A DNA stretch of 64,000 nt from Skermanella mucosa. GTDB lineage: Bacteria > Pseudomonadota > Alphaproteobacteria > Azospirillales > Azospirillaceae. A program made the position numbers and the translations under genes. The notes under the pieces were generated by a model. It made no database searches, was not told the DNA's origin, and was given only the letters and a program-made list of their open reading frames with translations. This document shows, piece after piece, positions 20,839 through 33,664 of this stretch (position 1 is the first letter of the stretch; each line of letters begins with the position of its first letter). The stretch spans positions 2,600,501-2,664,500 of the forward strand of contig NZ_CP086106.1 of assembly GCF_016765655.2 (NCBI RefSeq). Reading direction: 5' to 3'.

Positions 20839-21247
20839 CGCGATCCTCCGTCCTTCGGTATCAGGCGCCGCGAGGTAAGCGCCGCCCGATCCTGCGGACC
20901 CGGGTCCGCACATGCCCGAGAGTGTATCGCGTTTCGTGACTTAAGGGTTACCTATTCAGGAACAGATGGCGCAAGTAGGTTATGGCGGTCATCGGTCGAT
21001 CTGCTAGGTTCGCGCCGCCAGTCGTCAACAATGCGCGTCCGAGCGATCCTGCGGCGTAAACGTGAAAGCCCCGGCAAATGAGGCCTCCACCAGTGTCAAC
21101 ACTAAGCTGAGCAAGATAGGGTGTGTGCAATAAGCACTAAATGCCGTATTAAGATTTAGTGAAGGATGCTTTGGGGTTGGTCAGTTGTTGCTCGAATTTG
21201 TTAATAACGCGACTGCCCATGACCTTCATGATGAGCGAGAGGATTTG
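20839..21247. other. Divergent region between MCP-like gene and pstS
   Basis: 409 bases, becoming A+T-richer toward pstS. It contains the inverted repeat AGTGT-CA-ACACT at 21092-21103. TTGGTC at 21177 and TTAATA at 21201 could be a weak promoter for pstS. No convincing PhoB box (two CTGTCAT-like repeats 11 bases apart) was found. Confidence 0.4.
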
Positions 21248-22312
21248 ATGACCATCATCAGCAAGACCGTCATCCGCAGCGCAATAGCCGGGCTCGCCGG
21301 CATCGTGCTTGGGTCTTCGGCATATGCCCAGAACATCTCCGGCGCGGGCGCGACCTTCCCCTATCCGGTCTATGCCCGCTGGGCGCAGGCCTATCAGCAG
21401 GAGACCGGGACCAACATCAACTACCAGTCGATCGGCTCGGGCGGCGGCATCCGGCAGATCAAGGAAAAGACGGTGACCTTCGGCGCTTCGGACAGTCCGC
21501 TGAAGCCGGAGGAACTCGAGCAGGCCGGTCTCGTCCAGTTCCCCATGATCATGGGCGGCGTGGTCCCCGTGGTGAACGTTCCCGGCATCCAGCCGGGCCA
21601 GCTCCGGCTCGACGGCCCGACCCTTGCCAACATCTATCTGGGTGAAATCACCAGCTGGGACGACGACGCCATCAAGGCTCTCAATCCCGACCTGCAGCTT
21701 CCCGATCTCGCGATCGCGCCCGTCTACCGCTCCGACGGGTCGGGCACCAACTTCCTGTTCACCAACTACCTGAGCCAGGTCAGCGAGGACTTCAAGGAGC
21801 AGGTGGGCAGCAACACCTCGGTCCAGTGGCCGACCGGACTGGGTGCCCGCGGCAACGAAGGCGTCGCGGCCCAGACCAGCCAGATCCAAGGCGCCGTGGG
21901 GTATGTCGAGTACGCCTACGCCAAGCAGAACCAGATGACCAACGCCGTCATGAAGAACAAGGACGGGCAGTGGGTCGAACCCAACAGCGAGACCTTCCAG
22001 GCCGCGGCGGCCTCCGCCGACTGGAGCGCCAACCCCGGCTATTACGTCATCCTGACCGACCAGCCCGGCGCCAAGAGCTGGCCGATCACCGGCGCCAGCT
22101 TCATCCTGATGCATCGCCAGCCGCAGGACCCCGCCGCTTCCCAGTCGGCGCTCCGGTTCTTCCACTGGGCCTATATGAACGGCGACCAGATGGCCGACGA
22201 GCTGGACTACGTTCCGATGCCCGACAAGGTCGTGGACCAAGTCGAGCAGACCTGGACCACCGGGTTCGCCGAAGTGAACGGTGAGGCCATGTGGACCGGC
22301 GGCCAGCAGTAA
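21248..22312 (+). CDS. pstS: Phosphate ABC transporter substrate-binding protein
   Basis: 354 residues from ATG 21248, with GAGAGGA upstream. The signal peptide ends at about [18 protein letters not shown]; the mature protein begins with the conserved GAGATFP of PstS. Phosphate contacts typical of the family are visible ([33 protein letters not shown]). It captures phosphate in the periplasm for PstCAB. First gene of pstSCAB; usually induced by phosphate starvation through PhoB. Confidence 0.95.
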
Positions 22313-22338
22313 CGTAACGCCGACCTGGACGCAGAAAA

Positions 22339-23319
22339 ATGACCGATACCGCCATGACAGCCCAAAGCCGCACCCTCAGCGGCAGCCAGGCCAGACGCCA
22401 GAGCCTGATGGACAAGGCTTTCCAGTCCGCGACGGCGTTCTTCGCCGTTCTCGTCCTGCTGATCCTTGGCGGAGTCTTCGTCTCGCTGGTGCAGGGCGCC
22501 CTTCCGGCGCTCGGCACCTTCGGGTTCGACTTCGTGACCACGCAGGTCTGGAACCCCGTGACCGACCGCTTCGGCGCGGTGTCGCCGATCTATGGCACAT
22601 TGATGACGGCCTTGATCGCCATGGCGGTCGGCATTCCCATCAGCTTCGGCATCGCCGTGTTCCTGACGGAACTGGCGCCGCCGTGGCTGAAGCGTCCCGT
22701 CGGCATCGCTATCGAGCTGCTGGCCGGCATTCCCAGCATCATCTATGGCATCTGGGGCCTTTTCGTGTTCGCCCCGATCTTCCAGCAGACCCTCCAGCCG
22801 TTCCTGATCAACACGATCGGCCAGGTGCCGGTGATCGGCGACCTGTTCTCGGGCCCGCCGTTCGGCATCGGCATCTTCACCGCCGGCCTTATCCTCGGGA
22901 TCATGGTGCTTCCGTTCATCACCTCGATCATGCGCGACGTGTTCGAGACGGTGCCGCCCATGGTCAAGGAATCCGCCTACGGCCTTGGTGCCACCACCTG
23001 GGAGGTGGTCTGGAAGGTCGTGCTGCCCTATACCCGCGTCGGCGTGGTCGGCGGCGTCATGCTGGGCCTGGGACGTGCCCTGGGCGAGACGATGGCGGTC
23101 ACCTTCGTGGTCGGCAACGCGCACCGCATCGGCAATTCCCTGATGGCGCCGGGAACGACGATTTCCGCCGCGATCGCGAACGAATTCAACGAGGCCGTCG
23201 GCGAGCTGTACATCTCGTCCCTGATCGCCCTCGGCCTGATCCTGTTCTTTATTACCTTCACCGTGCTGGCACTGGCCAAGATCATGCTGATGCGCATGCA
23301 GCAGCGGTCGGGAGGCTGA
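22339..23319 (+). CDS. pstC: Phosphate ABC transporter permease PstC
   Basis: 326 residues with about six membrane segments and the ABC permease EAA loop around [35 protein letters not shown] is a strong PstC signature. It forms the inner-membrane phosphate channel with PstA. It begins 26 bases after pstS and lies 5 bases before pstA. Confidence 0.95.
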
Positions 23320-23324
23320 CCGAC

Positions 23325-24167
23325 ATGAATCTCTACGCCCGTCGCCAACTCACTAACCGGGTCGCGCTCGGCTTGTCGATGGCGGCCGCCGCCTTCGGCA
23401 TCTTCTGGCTGGTCGCGATCCTCTGGACCCTGTTCTACAACGGGCTGTCCGCGCTGGCGCCCAGCATCTTCACCATGAGCACGCCGCCGCCCGGCGTGGC
23501 GGGCGGCCTGATCAACGCGATTTACGGCAGCGTCGTGCTGACCCTGCTGGCGACCCTGATCGGCACGCCGATCGGCATTCTGGCCGGGACGTACCTGGCG
23601 GAATATTCCCGCGGCAACCTGCTGGGGCAGGTCATCCGCTTCATCAACGACATCCTGCTGAGCGCGCCGTCGATCATCATCGGCTTGTTCATCTATGGCG
23701 TCATGGTCGTCCCGATGGGCCATTTCTCGGCCTGGGCCGGCGCGGTCGCACTTTCGGTCATCGTCATCCCGGTCGTGGTCCGCACCACCGAGGACATGCT
23801 GAACCTAGTGCCGGCGAGCCTGCGCGAGGCCGCTGCGGCGCTGGGCGCCCCGCGGTGGAAGGTGATCGTGATGATCGCCTACCGTGCCGCCCGGAACGGC
23901 ATGATCACCGGCGTGCTGCTGGCGGTGGCGCGGATCAGCGGCGAGACGGCCCCGCTGCTGTTCACGTCGTTGAGCAACCAGTTCTGGAGCACCGACATGA
24001 ACGCGCCGATGGCGAACCTGCCGGTCGTCATCTTCCGCTTCGCGCTCAGCCCTTACGAGGACTGGCAGCAGTTGGCCTGGGCCGGCGCCCTGCTGATCAC
24101 CGTCACGATCCTCATCATCAACATCACCGCCCGCGTGCTCGCCGGGCTCGGATCGAAGGGACGATGA
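23325..24167 (+). CDS. pstA: Phosphate ABC transporter permease PstA
   Basis: 280 residues from ATG 23325, with GGGAGG upstream. About six membrane segments; the EAA loop is [18 protein letters not shown] and [14 protein letters not shown] is the PstA counterpart of the PstC motif. Its stop overlaps the pstB start by the ATGA arrangement, so translation is probably coupled. Confidence 0.95.
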
Positions 24168-25009
24168 CCATGCAAGAAGCCCGCTCCACCGCCACGGCCG
24201 GCCGCCAGATGCTGGTCCAGTCCATGCCGCCCGGCGCCGCGCAGGAAGGCCAGATGGTCGAGAAGATATCCGTCAGGAACCTCAGCTTCTTCTACGGGGA
24301 TTTCGAGGCGCTGAAGAACATAACCCTGCCGCTTTACGATCGGAAGGTTACCGCATTCATCGGCCCTTCGGGCTGTGGCAAATCCACGCTGCTTCGCATC
24401 CTCAACCGGATCTACGACTTGTACCCGAAGCAGCGCGCCGTGGGCGAGGTGCTTCTCGACGGGCAGAACATCCTGGCGCCGGGCATCGACCTGAACCTGC
24501 TGCGTGCCAAGATCGGCATGGTGTTCCAGAAGCCGACTCCGTTCCCGCTCAGCATCTACGACAACATCGCGTTCGGCATCCGGCTCTACGAGAAGCTGCC
24601 GCGCGACGAGATGGACGGCCGGGTCGAGCAGGCCCTGCGCCGCGCCGCCTTGTGGAACGAGGTGAAGGACAAGCTGAACCAGAGCGGCCTGAGCCTGTCC
24701 GGCGGCCAGCAGCAGCGCCTGTGCATCGCCCGGGCCGTCGCGGTCAACCCGTCGGTGCTTCTGATGGACGAGCCGGCATCGGCGTTGGACCCGATCTCCA
24801 CTTCCAAGATCGAGGAATTGATCGACGAGCTGAAGAGCGAGTACTGCATCTGCATCGTCACCCACAACATGCAGCAGGCGGCGCGCGCGTCTGACTTCAC
24901 GGCCTTCATGTATCTGGGCGAGCTGATCGAGTACGGCGTGACGGAGGACCTGTTCACGGCGCCCAAGCAGAAGCGCACCGAGGAGTACGTGACCGGCAGG
25001 TTCGGCTGA
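24164..25009 (+). CDS. pstB: Phosphate ABC transporter ATP-binding protein
   Basis: 281 residues. ABC ATPase with Walker [11 protein letters not shown]-loop in [11 protein letters not shown], signature LSGGQQQR, Walker B VLLMDEP and the switch His in VTHNMQQA; the sequence [15 protein letters not shown] is typical of PstB. It powers the PstSCA transporter. Unlike the common order, phoU and phoB do not follow; the next gene converges from the other strand only 9 bases later. Confidence 0.96.
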
Positions 25010-27176: not shown

Positions 27177-27192
27177 TGGCACGCTCATTGCT
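27177..27192 (+). promoter_or_regulatory. Sigma-54 (-24/-12) promoter for the Rieske/PQQ dehydrogenase operon
   Basis: TGGCACG-CTCA-TTGCT matches the consensus TGGCACG-N4-TTGCW at every fixed position. The GG (27178-27179) and GC (27190-27191) are exactly 10 bases apart. Transcription would begin near 27203, leaving a leader of about 120 bases before the Rieske gene. Confidence 0.85.
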
Positions 27193-27321: not shown

Positions 27322-27921
27322 GTGGATCATCAGGAGCCTGAAGTCGATATCGAGCGCCGGACCGTCCTGAAGGCGGCGTTGTGTGCCGGAGTGGCGCTTC
27401 ATCTGGCGCCGATGGGCGGTCCGGCGGAAGCCGTGGCCCAGGGAGACCCGCGCAAGTCGAGGCCCCAGGCGGGCGACCGGCTGGTGTTCGCCTCCGGCGA
27501 GCGCAAGGGAGAGCCGATCGGCGACAAGGACATCGAGCAAGGCCGGCAGCAGGTCATGGCCTATTGCCTCGACCCGGCGTCGGAAACGGTCCGCGACGGC
27601 TCGCGGCTCAACAAGGTGATGCTGATCCGGCTCGATCCGGCCGATCTGGACGAGGAGACCCGGAAGCACGCCGCCGGCGGCATCGTCGCCTTCTCGGCCG
27701 TCTGCAGCCATGCCGGCTGCGACGTTTCCGGCTGGCACGCAGAGGAGAGGATCCTCGAATGCCCGTGCCACCACTCCAAGTTCGACCCGCGCGCCAGCGG
27801 CAAGGTGGTCGGCGGCCCCGCGCCCCGCCGCTTGGCGCTCCTGCCGCTGGAGAACGGCCCCGACGGGCTGGTCGTGGCGGCCGGGTTCATCGGCAAGGTC
27901 GGCGCCGCGACGTCGGCCTGA
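27322..27921 (+). CDS. Tat-exported Rieske [2Fe-2S] protein
   Basis: 199 residues from GTG 27322, chosen because AGGGGAA lies 9 bases upstream. A twin-arginine signal is seen at the N-terminus (ERRTVLKAAL, Arg12-Arg13, hydrophobic stretch, AVA-Q). The Rieske domain has ligands Cys128 and His130 in CSHAGC and Cys147 and His150 in CPCHHS, plus Cys133 and Cys149 able to form the stabilising disulfide, as in bc1-type Rieske proteins. There is no oxygenase domain and no bc1 partner nearby. It is first in the operon with the PQQ dehydrogenase, so a role as its periplasmic electron acceptor is inferred. Confidence 0.88.
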   Translation: MDHQEPEVDIERRTVLKAALCAGVALHLAPMGGPAEAVAQGDPRKSRPQAGDRLVFASGERKGEPIGDKDIEQGRQQVMAYCLDPASETVRDGSRLNKVMLIRLDPADLDEETRKHAAGGIVAFSAVCSHAGCDVSGWHAEERILECPCHHSKFDPRASGKVVGGPAPRRLALLPLENGPDGLVVAAGFIGKVGAATSA

Positions 27922-27963: not shown

Positions 27964-29691
27964 ATGGACAAGAGAGCGTTGGCCAGGGGCATCGCCGCGG
28001 TGGCGCTGATGCTGGCTCCGGTACCTGTACTGGCGGCCGGCCCGCTGGACAACTATGCGCCGGTCACCCAGGAGCGGCTGGAGAAGCCGGAGGACGGCAA
28101 TTGGCTGCAGTACCGCCGCACCTATGACAGCTGGGGCTACAGCCCGCTGTCCCAAGTGAACACCGGCAACGTCAAGGACATGGTGCCGGTCTGGAGCTTC
28201 TCGACCGGCGTGAACGAGGGGCACCAATCGCCGCCGGTGGTCAACAACGGCGTCATGTTCATCACCACGCCCCAGGCGCAGGTGATAGCGCTGGACGCCA
28301 AGACCGGCGACCTGCTGTGGCGCTACAAGCGCGAGCTGCCGGAGGACCTGACCCAGCTCCATCCGACCAACCGGGGCGTGGCGCTGCTGGGCGACAAGGT
28401 CTATGTCGGCACGGTGGACGCCTTCATCGTGGCGCTGGACGCCAAGACCGGAAAGCCGGTGTGGGAGCAGCCGGTCGAGGATTACCAGAAGGGCTACTAC
28501 ATCACCATGGCGCCGCTGGCCGCCAAGGGGAAGGTGATGGTCGGCATGTCCGGCGGCGAGTTCGGCATCCGGGGTTTCCTGGCGGCGTTCGACGCGGAGA
28601 CGGGCAAGCCCGCCTGGAAGACCAGCACCATTCCGGGACCGGGCGAGCCGGGGAACGAGACCTGGGCGGGCGAGACCTGGAAGACCGGCGGCGCCCCGGT
28701 CTGGATCACCGGCAGCTACGACCCGGCCACGGGCCTGTCCTATTGGGGGACCGGCAACGCGGCGCCGTGGATGGCCGACCAGCGGGCGGGCGACAACAAG
28801 TGGGCGAACTCCGTCGTCGCGATCGACGTGGAGACCGGCAAGATGAAGTCGGCCCACCAGTACCATTGGAACGAGGCATGGGATTGGGACGAGGTCGCGG
28901 CCCCGATCCTGGTCGACGTGCAGCGGGACGGCCGGACCTACAAGAGCCTCGTCCATGCCGGCCGCAACGGCTATCTCTGGATTCTGGAAAGGTCGGGGGA
29001 CGAGATCAAGTTCGTCGACGCCAAGCCTTTCGTCCGGCAGAACGTGTTCAAGAGCCTGGATCCCAAGACCGGGCGGCCGACCTATGACGAGACCAAGGTG
29101 CCGGGAACCGGCAAGCGGGCGGACTTCTGCCCGTCGCTGTGGGGCGGCAAGGACTGGCCGCCGGTGGCCTACAACCCGCAGACCCGGCTTATGTACATTC
29201 CGGCCAACGAGAACCTGTGCGGCTACCTGGAGGGCAAGCAGACCGAATACGAGCCGGGCCAGCTCTATATCGGCGTCGCCATCTCCGACATCGGCATGAC
29301 GGTCCATCCCGATGCCGACCATATCGGCGAGCTTCAGGCCTGGAACCTGGATACCGGGCAGAAGGTCTGGACCCAGAAGTTCGACAAGTCGCAGAACTGG
29401 GGCCCTGTACTGACGACAGGCGGCGGCCTGGTCTTCATGGGCGGCACCAACGACCGCTTCTTCCGGGCATTCGACGCCAAGACCGGCGACAGGCTGTGGG
29501 AGACGCGGACGAACTCCGGCGTGACGGGCGTGCCGGTATCCTACGAGGTGGACGGGGTGCAGTACGTCGCCGTCCAGTCCGGGTGGGGTGTCGATGCCCA
29601 GCGCAAGCAGGAGAAGCTGGCCCAGCTCGGCTACGCGACGCTGGACGTCCCCCAGGGTGGCGTCGTCTGGGTCTACGCGCTTCGCAAGTAG
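27964..29691 (+). CDS. PQQ-dependent alcohol dehydrogenase, type I, with D-x-D motif
   Basis: 575 residues with a signal peptide ending near LAAG. Eight-bladed quinoprotein propeller with several W-motif repeats (ALDAKTGDLLWRY, ALDAKTGKPVWEQ, AFDAETGKPAWK, AWNLDTGQKVWTQ). The catalytic region reads NEAWDWDEVAAP with Asp307 as the expected base and Asp309 at the +2 position; an Asp there marks the lanthanide-dependent branch, whereas calcium enzymes have Ala or Ser. The vicinal Cys-Cys pair near NRGVA of typical methanol/ethanol dehydrogenases is absent (LHPTNRGVA). There is no heme domain. It should oxidise an alcohol in the periplasm; substrate unknown. Confidence 0.92.
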   Translation: MDKRALARGIAAVALMLAPVPVLAAGPLDNYAPVTQERLEKPEDGNWLQYRRTYDSWGYSPLSQVNTGNVKDMVPVWSFSTGVNEGHQSPPVVNNGVMFITTPQAQVIALDAKTGDLLWRYKRELPEDLTQLHPTNRGVALLGDKVYVGTVDAFIVALDAKTGKPVWEQPVEDYQKGYYITMAPLAAKGKVMVGMSGGEFGIRGFLAAFDAETGKPAWKTSTIPGPGEPGNETWAGETWKTGGAPVWITGSYDPATGLSYWGTGNAAPWMADQRAGDNKWANSVVAIDVETGKMKSAHQYHWNEAWDWDEVAAPILVDVQRDGRTYKSLVHAGRNGYLWILERSGDEIKFVDAKPFVRQNVFKSLDPKTGRPTYDETKVPGTGKRADFCPSLWGGKDWPPVAYNPQTRLMYIPANENLCGYLEGKQTEYEPGQLYIGVAISDIGMTVHPDADHIGELQAWNLDTGQKVWTQKFDKSQNWGPVLTTGGGLVFMGGTNDRFFRAFDAKTGDRLWETRTNSGVTGVPVSYEVDGVQYVAVQSGWGVDAQRKQEKLAQLGYATLDVPQGGVVWVYALRK

Positions 29692-29700
29692 ATCCGGGAG

Positions 29701-29985
29701 ATGCTTCGACTTAGGTCGGTGCCGGGAGATCCGCCGTCGCGCTGGTCGGCCGAGATCGTGGCGGGCTGCGGGGAGTTCCGCAGCCTGCTGCTCGGGACCG
29801 GGCGGGACCGCCGCTACATCATCGACTTCTGCGTGGTCGCGGACCGGCCGATGATGCTGATCAGCCTGACTGACGGAACGCCGGAAGCAGCGGTCTATAT
29901 CGAAGCCGGCAGGGTCATCCTGGAGGACCGGTGCCGGCATGCCGCGGTGGTGGAGGGCGGCCTGTTGCGGGAGGAGGGGGAATAG
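29701..29985 (+). CDS. Small hypothetical protein at the end of the PQQ dehydrogenase operon
   Basis: 94 residues starting 9 bases after the dehydrogenase stop, with GGGAG before the ATG. Soluble, no signal peptide, predicted mainly beta, two cysteines, no recognised motif. The close spacing suggests co-transcription with the Rieske and quinoprotein genes. Family unknown. A G+C-rich inverted repeat with a bulge (TTGTTG...CCCGCAACAA, 29994-30026) lies just after the stop and could end the operon. Confidence 0.6.
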   Translation: MLRLRSVPGDPPSRWSAEIVAGCGEFRSLLLGTGRDRRYIIDFCVVADRPMMLISLTDGTPEAAVYIEAGRVILEDRCRHAAVVEGGLLREEGE

Positions 29986-30096: not shown

Positions 30097-30267
30097 ATGT
30101 CTCATGGAGCAAAGCCGGTCATTGCCGTGCTGTTCGGCATCTCGGCTCTTCTGACGGCTGGGGTCGCCAGTGCCTGCCCTTCGCACACGACCCACTCCGC
30201 TCAGGCCCCGGCCAGCGACACCGTCGCCGACCAGGGCAAGAAAGTGCAGAGCGAGACACGCGGCTGA
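30097..30267 (+). CDS. Small exported or membrane-anchored protein
   Basis: 56 residues. A hydrophobic segment (about 7-24, VIAVLFGISALLTAGVASA) ends at Cys25 in ASAC, so it may be a signal peptide with a lipoprotein-like or signal peptidase I site; the remainder is short and polar (Thr, Ser, Asp, Lys). No family is recognised. The exceptionally strong ribosome binding site and the intrinsic terminator directly after it indicate a genuine, probably well-expressed small gene. Confidence 0.75.
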   Translation: MSHGAKPVIAVLFGISALLTAGVASACPSHTTHSAQAPASDTVADQGKKVQSETRG

Positions 30268-30721: not shown

Positions 30722-32140
30722 TCAGACCACCCGGAAGTTCTTGAACTGCCAGGGATCGGAGGTGTCTACGTCCTCCGGGAACAGGACGCCCCGGTTGTGC
30801 AGCGGAGTCCAGTCGCTGTAGGCACCGGTCAGTTTACCAAGGTAGGGTGCGGCGATTTCCAGCACGCGGTTGTGGTTCAGTTCCTCCGGTTCGACGATGC
30901 CGGCCCGCGGGTTCTCCATCGCCCAGATCACGCCGGCCAGGGCCGCCGCGGTCACTTGAAGGCTGGTCGCGTTGTTATGCGGGCACAACTCGCGGGCTTC
31001 CTGGATCGAAAGCTGGGAACCGAACCAGTAGGCGCCTTTCTTGTGGCCCATCAGCAGCACGCCCAGCTCGTCGATGCCGCCGATGATCTCGTCCATCATC
31101 AGGCGCTTTTCCGGTTGAAGGGTCCAGGTCTTGCCTGCGAACTCGTGGAGCGACAGGATCGCGTCGTCGCACGGGTGATAGGCATAGTGGACGGTCGGCC
31201 GGTAACGGACCGAGGTGCGGTCCCAGACGGTCAGGTAGTCGGCGATCGAGATCGCCTCGCTGTGCGTGATCAGGAAACCATGAAGCGGCCCCTCCTTGGG
31301 CGTCCAGGTTCGCACCCGGGTGCCGGCGCCGGGACGCATCAGGTAGATCGCGGCGTCGCATCCGAACTCGTGGCGCCGGCCGTCGGGGGGAAGGCCCTTC
31401 TCATGGGTTCCCCAGCCAAGTTCGGCCGGCTGCGCGCCCTCGCCGACGAAGCCGTCGATCGACCAGGTGTTGACGAACTCGCCGCGCTTCTTGGGTACGT
31501 TGGCTACCTGGGTGTCGCGCTCCGCCACATGGATGGCCTTGATCCCCAACGCCTGGGCCAGTTCCGCCCAGCCGCTGCGGGTACGCGGCTCCTTGACCTC
31601 CAGACCGGTGTCTCGGGCGACGTTGAGCAAAGCCTGCTTCATGAAATGGGAGACCAGCCCGGGATTGGCGCCATGGGTGATCACCGCGGTGGGGCCGTTG
31701 GCATAGCCGCCCTTGTGCTGCAACACCGATTCGCGCAGCGCGTAATTGGAGCGGAGCGAGGGCGACAGGCTCGTGTCGGTGTAACCGCCGGCCCAGGGCT
31801 CGATGCAGGTGTCGAGGTAGAGCGCGCCCCGGGTGTGGCAGAACTTGATCAGCGAGAGGCTGGACACGTCGACCGACAGGTTCAGGATGAAGTCGCCCTC
31901 GCCGACCATCGGGTCGAGCACGGTCCGGAAGTTGTCGCGGGTTAGCGCCACGCGGTGGAACTTGACGCCATATTCCTCCGCCTCGGCCTTGCCGCGGTCC
32001 TCGGCCGTCACGATCGAGATCTGCTCGGGCTTCATGTCGATGTGGCGCAGCAGGAGAGGCAAGATGCCCTGGCCGATGCTGCCGAATCCGACGATGACGA
32101 TGCGGCCGGCAAACTTGACGATGGGATTGGTCGTGGTCAT
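30722..32140 (-). CDS. hss: Homospermidine synthase
   Basis: 472 residues from ATG 32140 (MTTTNPIVKFAGRIVIVGFG), the normal length. The enzyme makes sym-homospermidine from two putrescines in an NAD-dependent reaction; many alphaproteobacteria use it in place of spermidine. The Rossmann motif VGFGSIGQG is at residues 17-25, and the conserved blocks LNLSVDVSSLSLIKFCHTRG, LDTCIEPWAGGY and ITHGANPGLVSHF are present. It lies 94 bases after the ornithine decarboxylase gene, which supplies putrescine, so the pair forms a pathway operon. Confidence 0.95.
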   Translation of the reverse strand: MTTTNPIVKFAGRIVIVGFGSIGQGILPLLLRHIDMKPEQISIVTAEDRGKAEAEEYGVKFHRVALTRDNFRTVLDPMVGEGDFILNLSVDVSSLSLIKFCHTRGALYLDTCIEPWAGGYTDTSLSPSLRSNYALRESVLQHKGGYANGPTAVITHGANPGLVSHFMKQALLNVARDTGLEVKEPRTRSGWAELAQALGIKAIHVAERDTQVANVPKKRGEFVNTWSIDGFVGEGAQPAELGWGTHEKGLPPDGRRHEFGCDAAIYLMRPGAGTRVRTWTPKEGPLHGFLITHSEAISIADYLTVWDRTSVRYRPTVHYAYHPCDDAILSLHEFAGKTWTLQPEKRLMMDEIIGGIDELGVLLMGHKKGAYWFGSQLSIQEARELCPHNNATSLQVTAAALAGVIWAMENPRAGIVEPEELNHNRVLEIAAPYLGKLTGAYSDWTPLHNRGVLFPEDVDTSDPWQFKNFRVV

Positions 32141-32234
32141 GGCTTGTTCCGAACAGGCTGGAGGTGGCTGACGAATGTCGGGGCCCCGCTGGGTGGATAG
32201 GTTGACGGGTGAGACAGTAGAGGACAGGCTGCGT

Positions 32235-33557
32235 TCAGGCAGCCTGTTCCGTGATGTAGCCGACCGAATTTGCATTTTCGCCGCTTCGATCGGACAGATG
32301 GGCCTGTTCATCGGCCCGATCCAGGTAGCCCGGAGTTTCCAGGAGCGGCCGATCGGTCACATCGACGAGGCGGGCATTGTCGAACCCGTTGAACGCGGTC
32401 CGCAGGCACGAGCCGTAGGCCCCGAGCTGGCCCAGCTCGATCCAGTCGCCGGTCCGGATGTCTGCCGGCAGCAGGAAGGGGCCGGCCATGTAGTCGGCGC
32501 TGTCGCAGGTCGGGCCGTAGAAGGCGAACGCCTCCTCCGCCGCGTCCGACGCTCCGGCATCCGGACGGATCATGCGCGCCGGGAAACGGAAGGCGGGGAC
32601 GCCGGCATCGGACAGGCTGCCATAGACGCCGTCATTGATGAACAGCTCGTTGCCGCGGCGCTTGATCACCTGGACCAGCAGCGAAACGCCGGGTGCGACG
32701 AGGGCGCGGCCGGGCTCGCACCACAGGCGGGTGCTGGACGGCAGGTCCAGGCGCGCGAAGCCGCGCGCAATGGCTTCCATGAAGTCTCCCAGCGGGGGCG
32801 GGGTGACGCCGGGATAGCTGACCGGGAAACCGCCGCCCACATCCATCACGTCGATCTCGACGCCGGCCCGTGCTATTACCGTGCCGGCCAGTTCGAGCGC
32901 CCGTTCGTAGGCGGCCGGATCCAGGCACTGCGATCCGACATGGAAGCAGATGCCGACCTTGCGGCCGACGGCGCGGGCGGTGCGCAGCAGCTTGGCGGCC
33001 TCGTCCGGAGCGGCTCCGAACTTGCCGGACAGGTCGTAAACGGCCGAGCCCTTCGGCAGGGCGAGGCGGATGAACAGCCCCAGGTCGTCGGCACCGTCGG
33101 TCTGTCCGACAAGCTTCTCCAGTTCCTCGGCGCTGTCGAGCGAGAAGTCGCGCACGCCGAAGTCGAAATAGGCTTGGCGGATGGCGTCCGGCGACTTGAC
33201 CGGATGCATGTAATGGATCTCGGCGTTCGGGAACATCTGGCGGACCAGACGGACCTCCCCCGGAGAAGCGGCATCGAAATGGCGCACGCCGCCCTCGTAG
33301 AGCGCGCGCAGCACCGCCGGCTCCGGATTGCACTTCACCGCGTACAGCACGTCGCCGGGAAACGCCGACACGAACCGGGCGGCGGTCGCGGACAGGACGG
33401 CAGGGCGAAGGCAGTGGACCGGATCGGAGGGGCGCAGCGTCTCGACCAGATTGTCGACGCAGGTGACGGGGCGGCGGACGGACGGCGCGCCGCGGCGGCT
33501 GAGCGTGGTGCCTCGGCGCAGCGGCGAGACGGCGGAACGGTAGCGGACTTGAGCCAT
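32235..33557 (-). CDS. Ornithine decarboxylase (PLP fold type III; may also act on lysine)
   Basis: 440 residues from ATG 33557, with GAGAGGATG upstream. Alanine-racemase-fold PLP enzyme: Lys75 in YAVKCNPEP binds PLP, HVGSQ and MDVGGGFP are phosphate-binding loops, CEPGRALVA is conserved, and the active-site Cys351 is in YGPTCDSAD. It decarboxylates ornithine to putrescine. The pairing with homospermidine synthase argues for ornithine as the main substrate, although alphaproteobacterial members can be bifunctional with lysine. The N-terminus is about 40 residues longer than usual, Arg-rich. A structured leader lies upstream. Confidence 0.93.
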   Translation of the reverse strand: MAQVRYRSAVSPLRRGTTLSRRGAPSVRRPVTCVDNLVETLRPSDPVHCLRPAVLSATAARFVSAFPGDVLYAVKCNPEPAVLRALYEGGVRHFDAASPGEVRLVRQMFPNAEIHYMHPVKSPDAIRQAYFDFGVRDFSLDSAEELEKLVGQTDGADDLGLFIRLALPKGSAVYDLSGKFGAAPDEAAKLLRTARAVGRKVGICFHVGSQCLDPAAYERALELAGTVIARAGVEIDVMDVGGGFPVSYPGVTPPPLGDFMEAIARGFARLDLPSSTRLWCEPGRALVAPGVSLLVQVIKRRGNELFINDGVYGSLSDAGVPAFRFPARMIRPDAGASDAAEEAFAFYGPTCDSADYMAGPFLLPADIRTGDWIELGQLGAYGSCLRTAFNGFDNARLVDVTDRPLLETPGYLDRADEQAHLSDRSGENANSVGYITEQAA

Positions 33558-33664
33558 GACGCATCCTCTCGTGGGCCGCGGCCGCGCCGGCAGACCCATG
33601 AAGACAAAACGACCCTAACGGCATGAAGGCCGCGGGAATGGACGAATTGAGCGGGGATGAGATC

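Follow-up and report, generated by a model that had tools for sequence, protein, structure and literature searches.

To our knowledge, every lanthanide enzyme described to date is a PQQ dehydrogenase, and the electron acceptors which have been characterised for them are cytochromes. Among the PQQ-dependent alcohol dehydrogenases (PQQ-ADHs), type 6a is a phylogenetic type to which two proteins of Methylobacterium aquaticum 22A, 1p32165 (Adh4) and 1p30675 (Adh6), have been assigned (PMC7356819), and in deep ocean water the PQQ-dehydrogenase transcripts are dominated by a set of types that includes it (PMC11996626). Adh6 has been published with an Ala (Ala301) at the metal position (PMC5784242). 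Here, we analysed a 64,000-nucleotide stretch of the Skermanella mucosa genome (contig NZ_CP086106.1, positions 2,600,501 to 2,664,500; hereafter the window), in which a PQQ-ADH gene is located next to the gene of a Rieske protein.

The dehydrogenase and its metal column

The dehydrogenase gene (27964..29691 of the window, + strand) encodes a protein of 575 amino acids, of which about the first 25 are predicted to be a signal peptide. The protein is a member of the PQQ-dependent methanol/ethanol dehydrogenase family (TIGR03075): it scores 586.8 bits against this model (cut-off 480.05) and also matches PF01011. Its AlphaFold model has a mean pLDDT of 90.8, falling below 50 in residues 1-25 only, and forms an eight-bladed propeller, with Z scores of about 47-55 against family members. 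The nearest known fold is that of PedH (Z 54.7, rmsd 1.5 Å over 530 residues).

The original prediction had placed a D-W-D motif with a catalytic Asp307 at 28882-28890 (+ strand). Translation from the ATG at 27964 reads gat tgg gac as D307-W308-D309, and a phmmer alignment puts D307 and D309 in the columns of D323 and D325 of PedH (6zcv), respectively, so that both the motif and the role of D307 hold. In the same alignment E199 (28558..28560, + strand) corresponds to PedH E199 and N265 (28756..28758, + strand) to PedH N281; both metal ligands are invariant in our alignments A1, A2 and A3. Because D307, D309, E199 and N265 fall on PedH ligands, all four lanthanide ligands are there.

The alignment that could have contradicted the prediction, by placing Asp309 outside the lanthanide-coordinating column, places it inside, since this column is Asp in solved XoxF (6dam, 4mae, 6oc5) and PedH (6zcw/6zcv) chains and Ala, Ser or Thr in solved calcium enzymes. 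Ala is found in 4aah/1g72 (WDFA) and in 4tqo and 5xm3 (WDYA), Ser in 1flg (WDFS), and Thr in 1kv9 (WDFT) and in 1kb0, 1yiq and 8gy2 (WDYT). Calcium enzymes had been expected to carry Ala or Ser; both were seen, and Thr has to be added.

Residues 131-137 (QLHPTNR; 28354..28374, + strand) occupy the place where other quinoproteins have a vicinal Cys-Cys pair, which is replaced here. Alignments of the clade to which the enzyme belongs (see below) revealed that the pair is absent throughout, except in a distant Deinococcus copy, and that the site reads H-P-TNRG or similar. The missing pair and a secondary match to TIGR04528 ('acido_non_PQQ') might suggest a paralogue that is inactive or lacks PQQ, like those of the acido-empty-quinoprotein group, but this is highly improbable given that the TIGR03075 score is far higher and above its cut-off, that the metal ligands and the PQQ-site residues R334 and W247 are conserved, and that conservation is strong across phyla. 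In the first clade alignment set, N265, D307 and W247 are kept in all 97 rows, and E199 and R334 in 96 of them. Acido-empty-quinoprotein identity was rejected, as the TIGR04528 score is 372.6 bits vs a cut-off of 650 and the metal ligands are kept. The Skermanella genome also encodes PqqE above its cut-off, and therefore PQQ can probably be made.

The type 6a clade and its Asp-to-Ala branch

Using an alignment-based scan of genome contigs, we detected relatives of the window enzyme at 57-70% identity in Proteobacteria, Rokubacteria, Acidobacteria, Gemmatimonadetes and Myxococcota. Plasmid copies occur in Roseomonas, Azoarcus, Methylobacterium, Alteromonas and Paracoccus, and a more distant one is present on a Deinococcus plasmid. 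The 80 loci taken from genomes are those scoring highest against an alignment headed by the window protein, and they are biased towards its own branch; therefore, frequencies among them are not those of the whole of type 6a. The clade dehydrogenase of one congener (G004, locus L015) is identical to the S. stibiiresistens copy (L083).

In a tree built with the motif columns left out, the clade separates with full support from the PedH-like and XoxF-like proteins of the same genome, and the PedH-like proteins L001/L050 group on a branch of their own, also with full support. XoxF identity was rejected, as the XoxF-like L002 lies outside the clade in trees, and so was ExaF/PedH (type 2b) identity, as PedH-like proteins branch apart and the vicinal Cys pair is absent in the window enzyme. 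With the XoxF and ExaF/PedH types named in the prediction the enzyme shares the D-x-D column, but it is itself placed in a distinct clade, PQQ-ADH type 6a.

This name comes from plasmid pMaq22A_1p of M. aquaticum 22A, which carries two full-length clade members about 305 kb apart. The locus tags 1p30675 and 1p32165 are separated by 298 tag steps, which fits this distance, and the copy at 144 kb, the place fitting 1p30675, reads WDWA. From the tag spacing and the published Ala301 we infer that the plasmid copies are Adh4 and Adh6; because they cluster in the clade, their tag spacing fits and the Ala matches published Adh6, we named the clade type 6a.

Position 309 is Asp in 94 of the 97 rows of the first aligned set and Ala in the other three. 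After further members had been added, seven sequences with Ala formed a single branch (Alteromonas and Paracoccus together with the M. aquaticum Adh6 type and relatives), and every clade member examined outside this branch has Asp. The tree needs one change to explain this distribution; because the outgroups have Asp, it is more simply read as a loss of Asp than as a gain. It has been reported that M. aquaticum 1p30675, with Ala at the metal position, is repressed by La3+, and that the Asp member 1p32165 has no clear pattern of response to La3+ (PMC5784242). Because the Ala member is La3+-repressed, the metal behaviour of the Ala branch within type 6a appears as expected for a calcium enzyme, judging from this one published member.

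Lanthanide binding by the window enzyme is well supported but unproven. The predicted dependence on lanthanides agrees with the Asp column, the four ligands and a predicted fold closest to PedH, but D-x-D is not fully diagnostic: it is no proof by itself, because membrane glucose dehydrogenases (m-GDHs) carry it too and yet work with Ca/Mg (PMC11996626). All five PQQ dehydrogenases that we read in the Skermanella genome (G000, L001-L005) are D-x-D, including an m-GDH-like protein with WDYD, and no A/S/T type was seen among the five. The window enzyme might, like m-GDHs, use Ca or Mg despite its D-x-D, or be promiscuous for Ca and lanthanides. We consider this improbable, since the nearest solved D-x-D relatives, PedH and XoxF, are lanthanide enzymes, the aligned calcium enzymes of the methanol/ethanol family have A/S/T, and the one studied member of the Ala branch inside the clade is repressed by La.

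The Rieske partner and its gene neighbourhood

The gene located 42 bases upstream of the dehydrogenase on the same strand (27322..27921, + strand) encodes a Rieske [2Fe-2S] protein (PF00355) which is predicted to be exported (twin-arginine signal ERRTVLK) and contains the cluster motif CSHAGC...CPCHHS. Among proteins of known structure, it is closest to the Thermus Rieske protein 1nyk (E 1e-34). Profile searches revealed a Rieske gene directly adjacent to the dehydrogenase, on the same strand, in 73 of 88 clade loci. In the other 15 loci, among them a Gemmatimonadetes/Pseudomonadales group and part of the Acidobacteria, this search showed no Rieske neighbour, so the partner is not universal. 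In further clade loci examined beyond the 88, a Rieske gene lies beside every dehydrogenase. Rieske-adjacent loci span Proteobacteria, Acidobacteria, Rokubacteria, Gemmatimonadetes, Myxococcota and a Deinococcus plasmid. The Rieske gene is upstream in most clade loci and downstream in the Alteromonas and Paracoccus branch.

We also searched for both proteins in 35 genomes belonging to the bacterial family of the window. Rieske proteins of the partner type were found in the window's own genome (G000), G001, G002 and G004, which are the four genomes with a full-length clade dehydrogenase, and in G010. In G003, only pieces of the dehydrogenase were detected, at contig ends. G010 encodes two Rieske proteins of the partner type, and no full-length clade dehydrogenase was detected in it.

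An alternative is that the enzyme is lanthanide-dependent but works with an ordinary cytochrome c whose gene lies elsewhere; the Rieske protein, although co-transcribed, would then serve in something else, for example in maturation or in a different oxidoreductase step. XoxF and PedH systems are generally known to use cytochromes, a CxxCH protein is encoded in the region of each of the PedH-like, XoxF-like and third methanol/ethanol-type PQQ-ADH genes of the genome, and the 15 loci without a Rieske neighbour would fit as well. However, no small CxxCH protein was found within 5 kb of the window dehydrogenase, the Rieske gene is directly adjacent in 73 of 88 loci on either side depending on the branch, and the two proteins co-occur across genomes of the family. 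We therefore regard this alternative as rather unlikely, though the least unlikely of those considered here. No Rieske gene was found near the PedH-like, XoxF-like or third PQQ-ADH genes. For the window enzyme, gene order suggests electron transfer to the Rieske protein; gene neighbourhood does not prove such a transfer.

In a non-exhaustive search of the literature, consisting mostly of titles and abstracts, we found no description of a Rieske/PQQ dehydrogenase pairing. In papers examined beyond the abstract, the Rieske protein is a bc1 subunit or appears in the title of a reference only. The publications found that name type 6a mention no Rieske partner. The pairing, which recurs in many bacteria, seems to be undescribed within the literature searched.

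Ahead of the Rieske gene lies a sigma-54 (-24/-12) promoter, TGGCACGCTCATTGCT (27177..27192, + strand), which is an exact match to the consensus and the sole match in the window at one mismatch or fewer (0.56 expected). Divergent from the gene pair, a sigma-54 activator with GAF, AAA+ and Fis domains (PF01590, PF00158 and PF02954; 25019..26962, - strand) is encoded, which we take to be AcoR-like. Related activator genes are present in 9 other clade loci. Comparable sigma-54 sites were found in 6 other clade loci, all of which carry the related activator gene, and were not found in three Alteromonas/Paracoccus loci with the activator gene.

Downstream of the dehydrogenase, a small ORF of 94 amino acids (29701..29985, + strand), with no Pfam match, is a possible third gene of the transcript; it is conserved in two close congeners only, as is a 56-amino acid ORF with a signal-like N-terminus (30097-30267, + strand). 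In other clade loci, aldehyde dehydrogenases and molybdopterin oxidoreductases are among the neighbours, which fits oxidation of alcohol to aldehyde and onward.

Several additional features of the neighbourhoods were observed. A molybdopterin oxidoreductase cluster is present in 24 clade loci, and in Roseomonas (L042, 9701-12446) the dehydrogenase is followed by a molybdopterin oxidoreductase as well as a 2Fe-2S protein. In the window, the gene of a saccharopine-dehydrogenase-like protein (30722-32143, - strand), presumably a homospermidine synthase, adjoins that of an ornithine/arginine decarboxylase-type protein (32235-33599, - strand), and the two probably form a polyamine pair. On the other side, genes for a PBP-like binding protein, permeases and an ABC ATPase lie in a row (21242-25006, + strand) and resemble a pst operon for phosphate uptake.

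Proposed mechanism and comparison with known systems

Based on these observations, the locus probably encodes a periplasmic type 6a lanthanide-PQQ alcohol dehydrogenase whose electrons leave via the adjacent Rieske protein, the pair being driven by sigma-54. What the analysis shows directly is the motif and its column, the ligands, the predicted fold, the conserved Rieske neighbour and the promoter sequence; the identity of the metal, the substrate, the electron route and the inducer are inferred from these. The enzyme most likely binds a light lanthanide via E199, N265, D307 and D309, and a primary alcohol (or aldehyde) would be oxidised by the lanthanide-PQQ pair, which would accept two electrons. 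These most likely go one by one to the predicted Tat-exported, bc1-type Rieske [2Fe-2S] protein, which would take the place that a dedicated cytochrome c has in XoxF/PedH systems and feed them into the respiratory chain. Transcription of the two genes probably starts at the sigma-54 promoter under control of the divergent GAF-type activator, and induction therefore probably follows an organic inducer.

It is about an even chance that this arrangement represents a respiratory module widespread in bacteria, with a lanthanide-PQQ alcohol dehydrogenase passing electrons to a dedicated exported Rieske protein and not to a cytochrome c, and that one branch of it switched from the lanthanide-type to a calcium-type pocket but kept the Rieske protein. 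A conserved Rieske partner, if true, would be a new electron route for lanthanide enzymes, present in soil and marine bacteria of several phyla. The Asp-to-Ala branch within one conserved gene pair offers a natural experiment on metal choice, which is directly testable across Asp and Ala members in cultured Methylobacterium.

Of the described systems, the two M. aquaticum proteins belong to the same type as the window enzyme. Adh4 (1p32165) is 62% identical to it, reads WDWD and has a Rieske neighbour; Adh6 (1p30675) is 53% identical and also has a Rieske neighbour, but differs by WDWA. In all three, H-P/Y-TNRG replaces the vicinal Cys pair. PedH/ExaF (type 2b; 6zcv, 6zcw) is the best structural and sequence match, with the same four metal ligands and D-x-D, but is about 40% identical, has the vicinal Cys pair and is placed apart from the clade by the tree; the PedH-like gene of the Skermanella genome, unlike the window gene, has no adjacent Rieske gene. 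XoxF proteins (4mae, 6dam, 6oc5) have the D-x-D lanthanide column in common with the window enzyme, whereas they are about 34-38% identical to it and lie outside the clade; the XoxF-like gene of the genome (WDYD) differs from the window gene in having a CxxCH protein encoded just downstream. For the partner, the nearest solved relative across the full mature length is the Thermus thermophilus Rieske protein (1nyk, 3fou; E 1e-34). The 3fou entry is annotated as the Rieske subunit of a quinol-cytochrome c reductase, whereas the partner described here is encoded beside a dehydrogenase.
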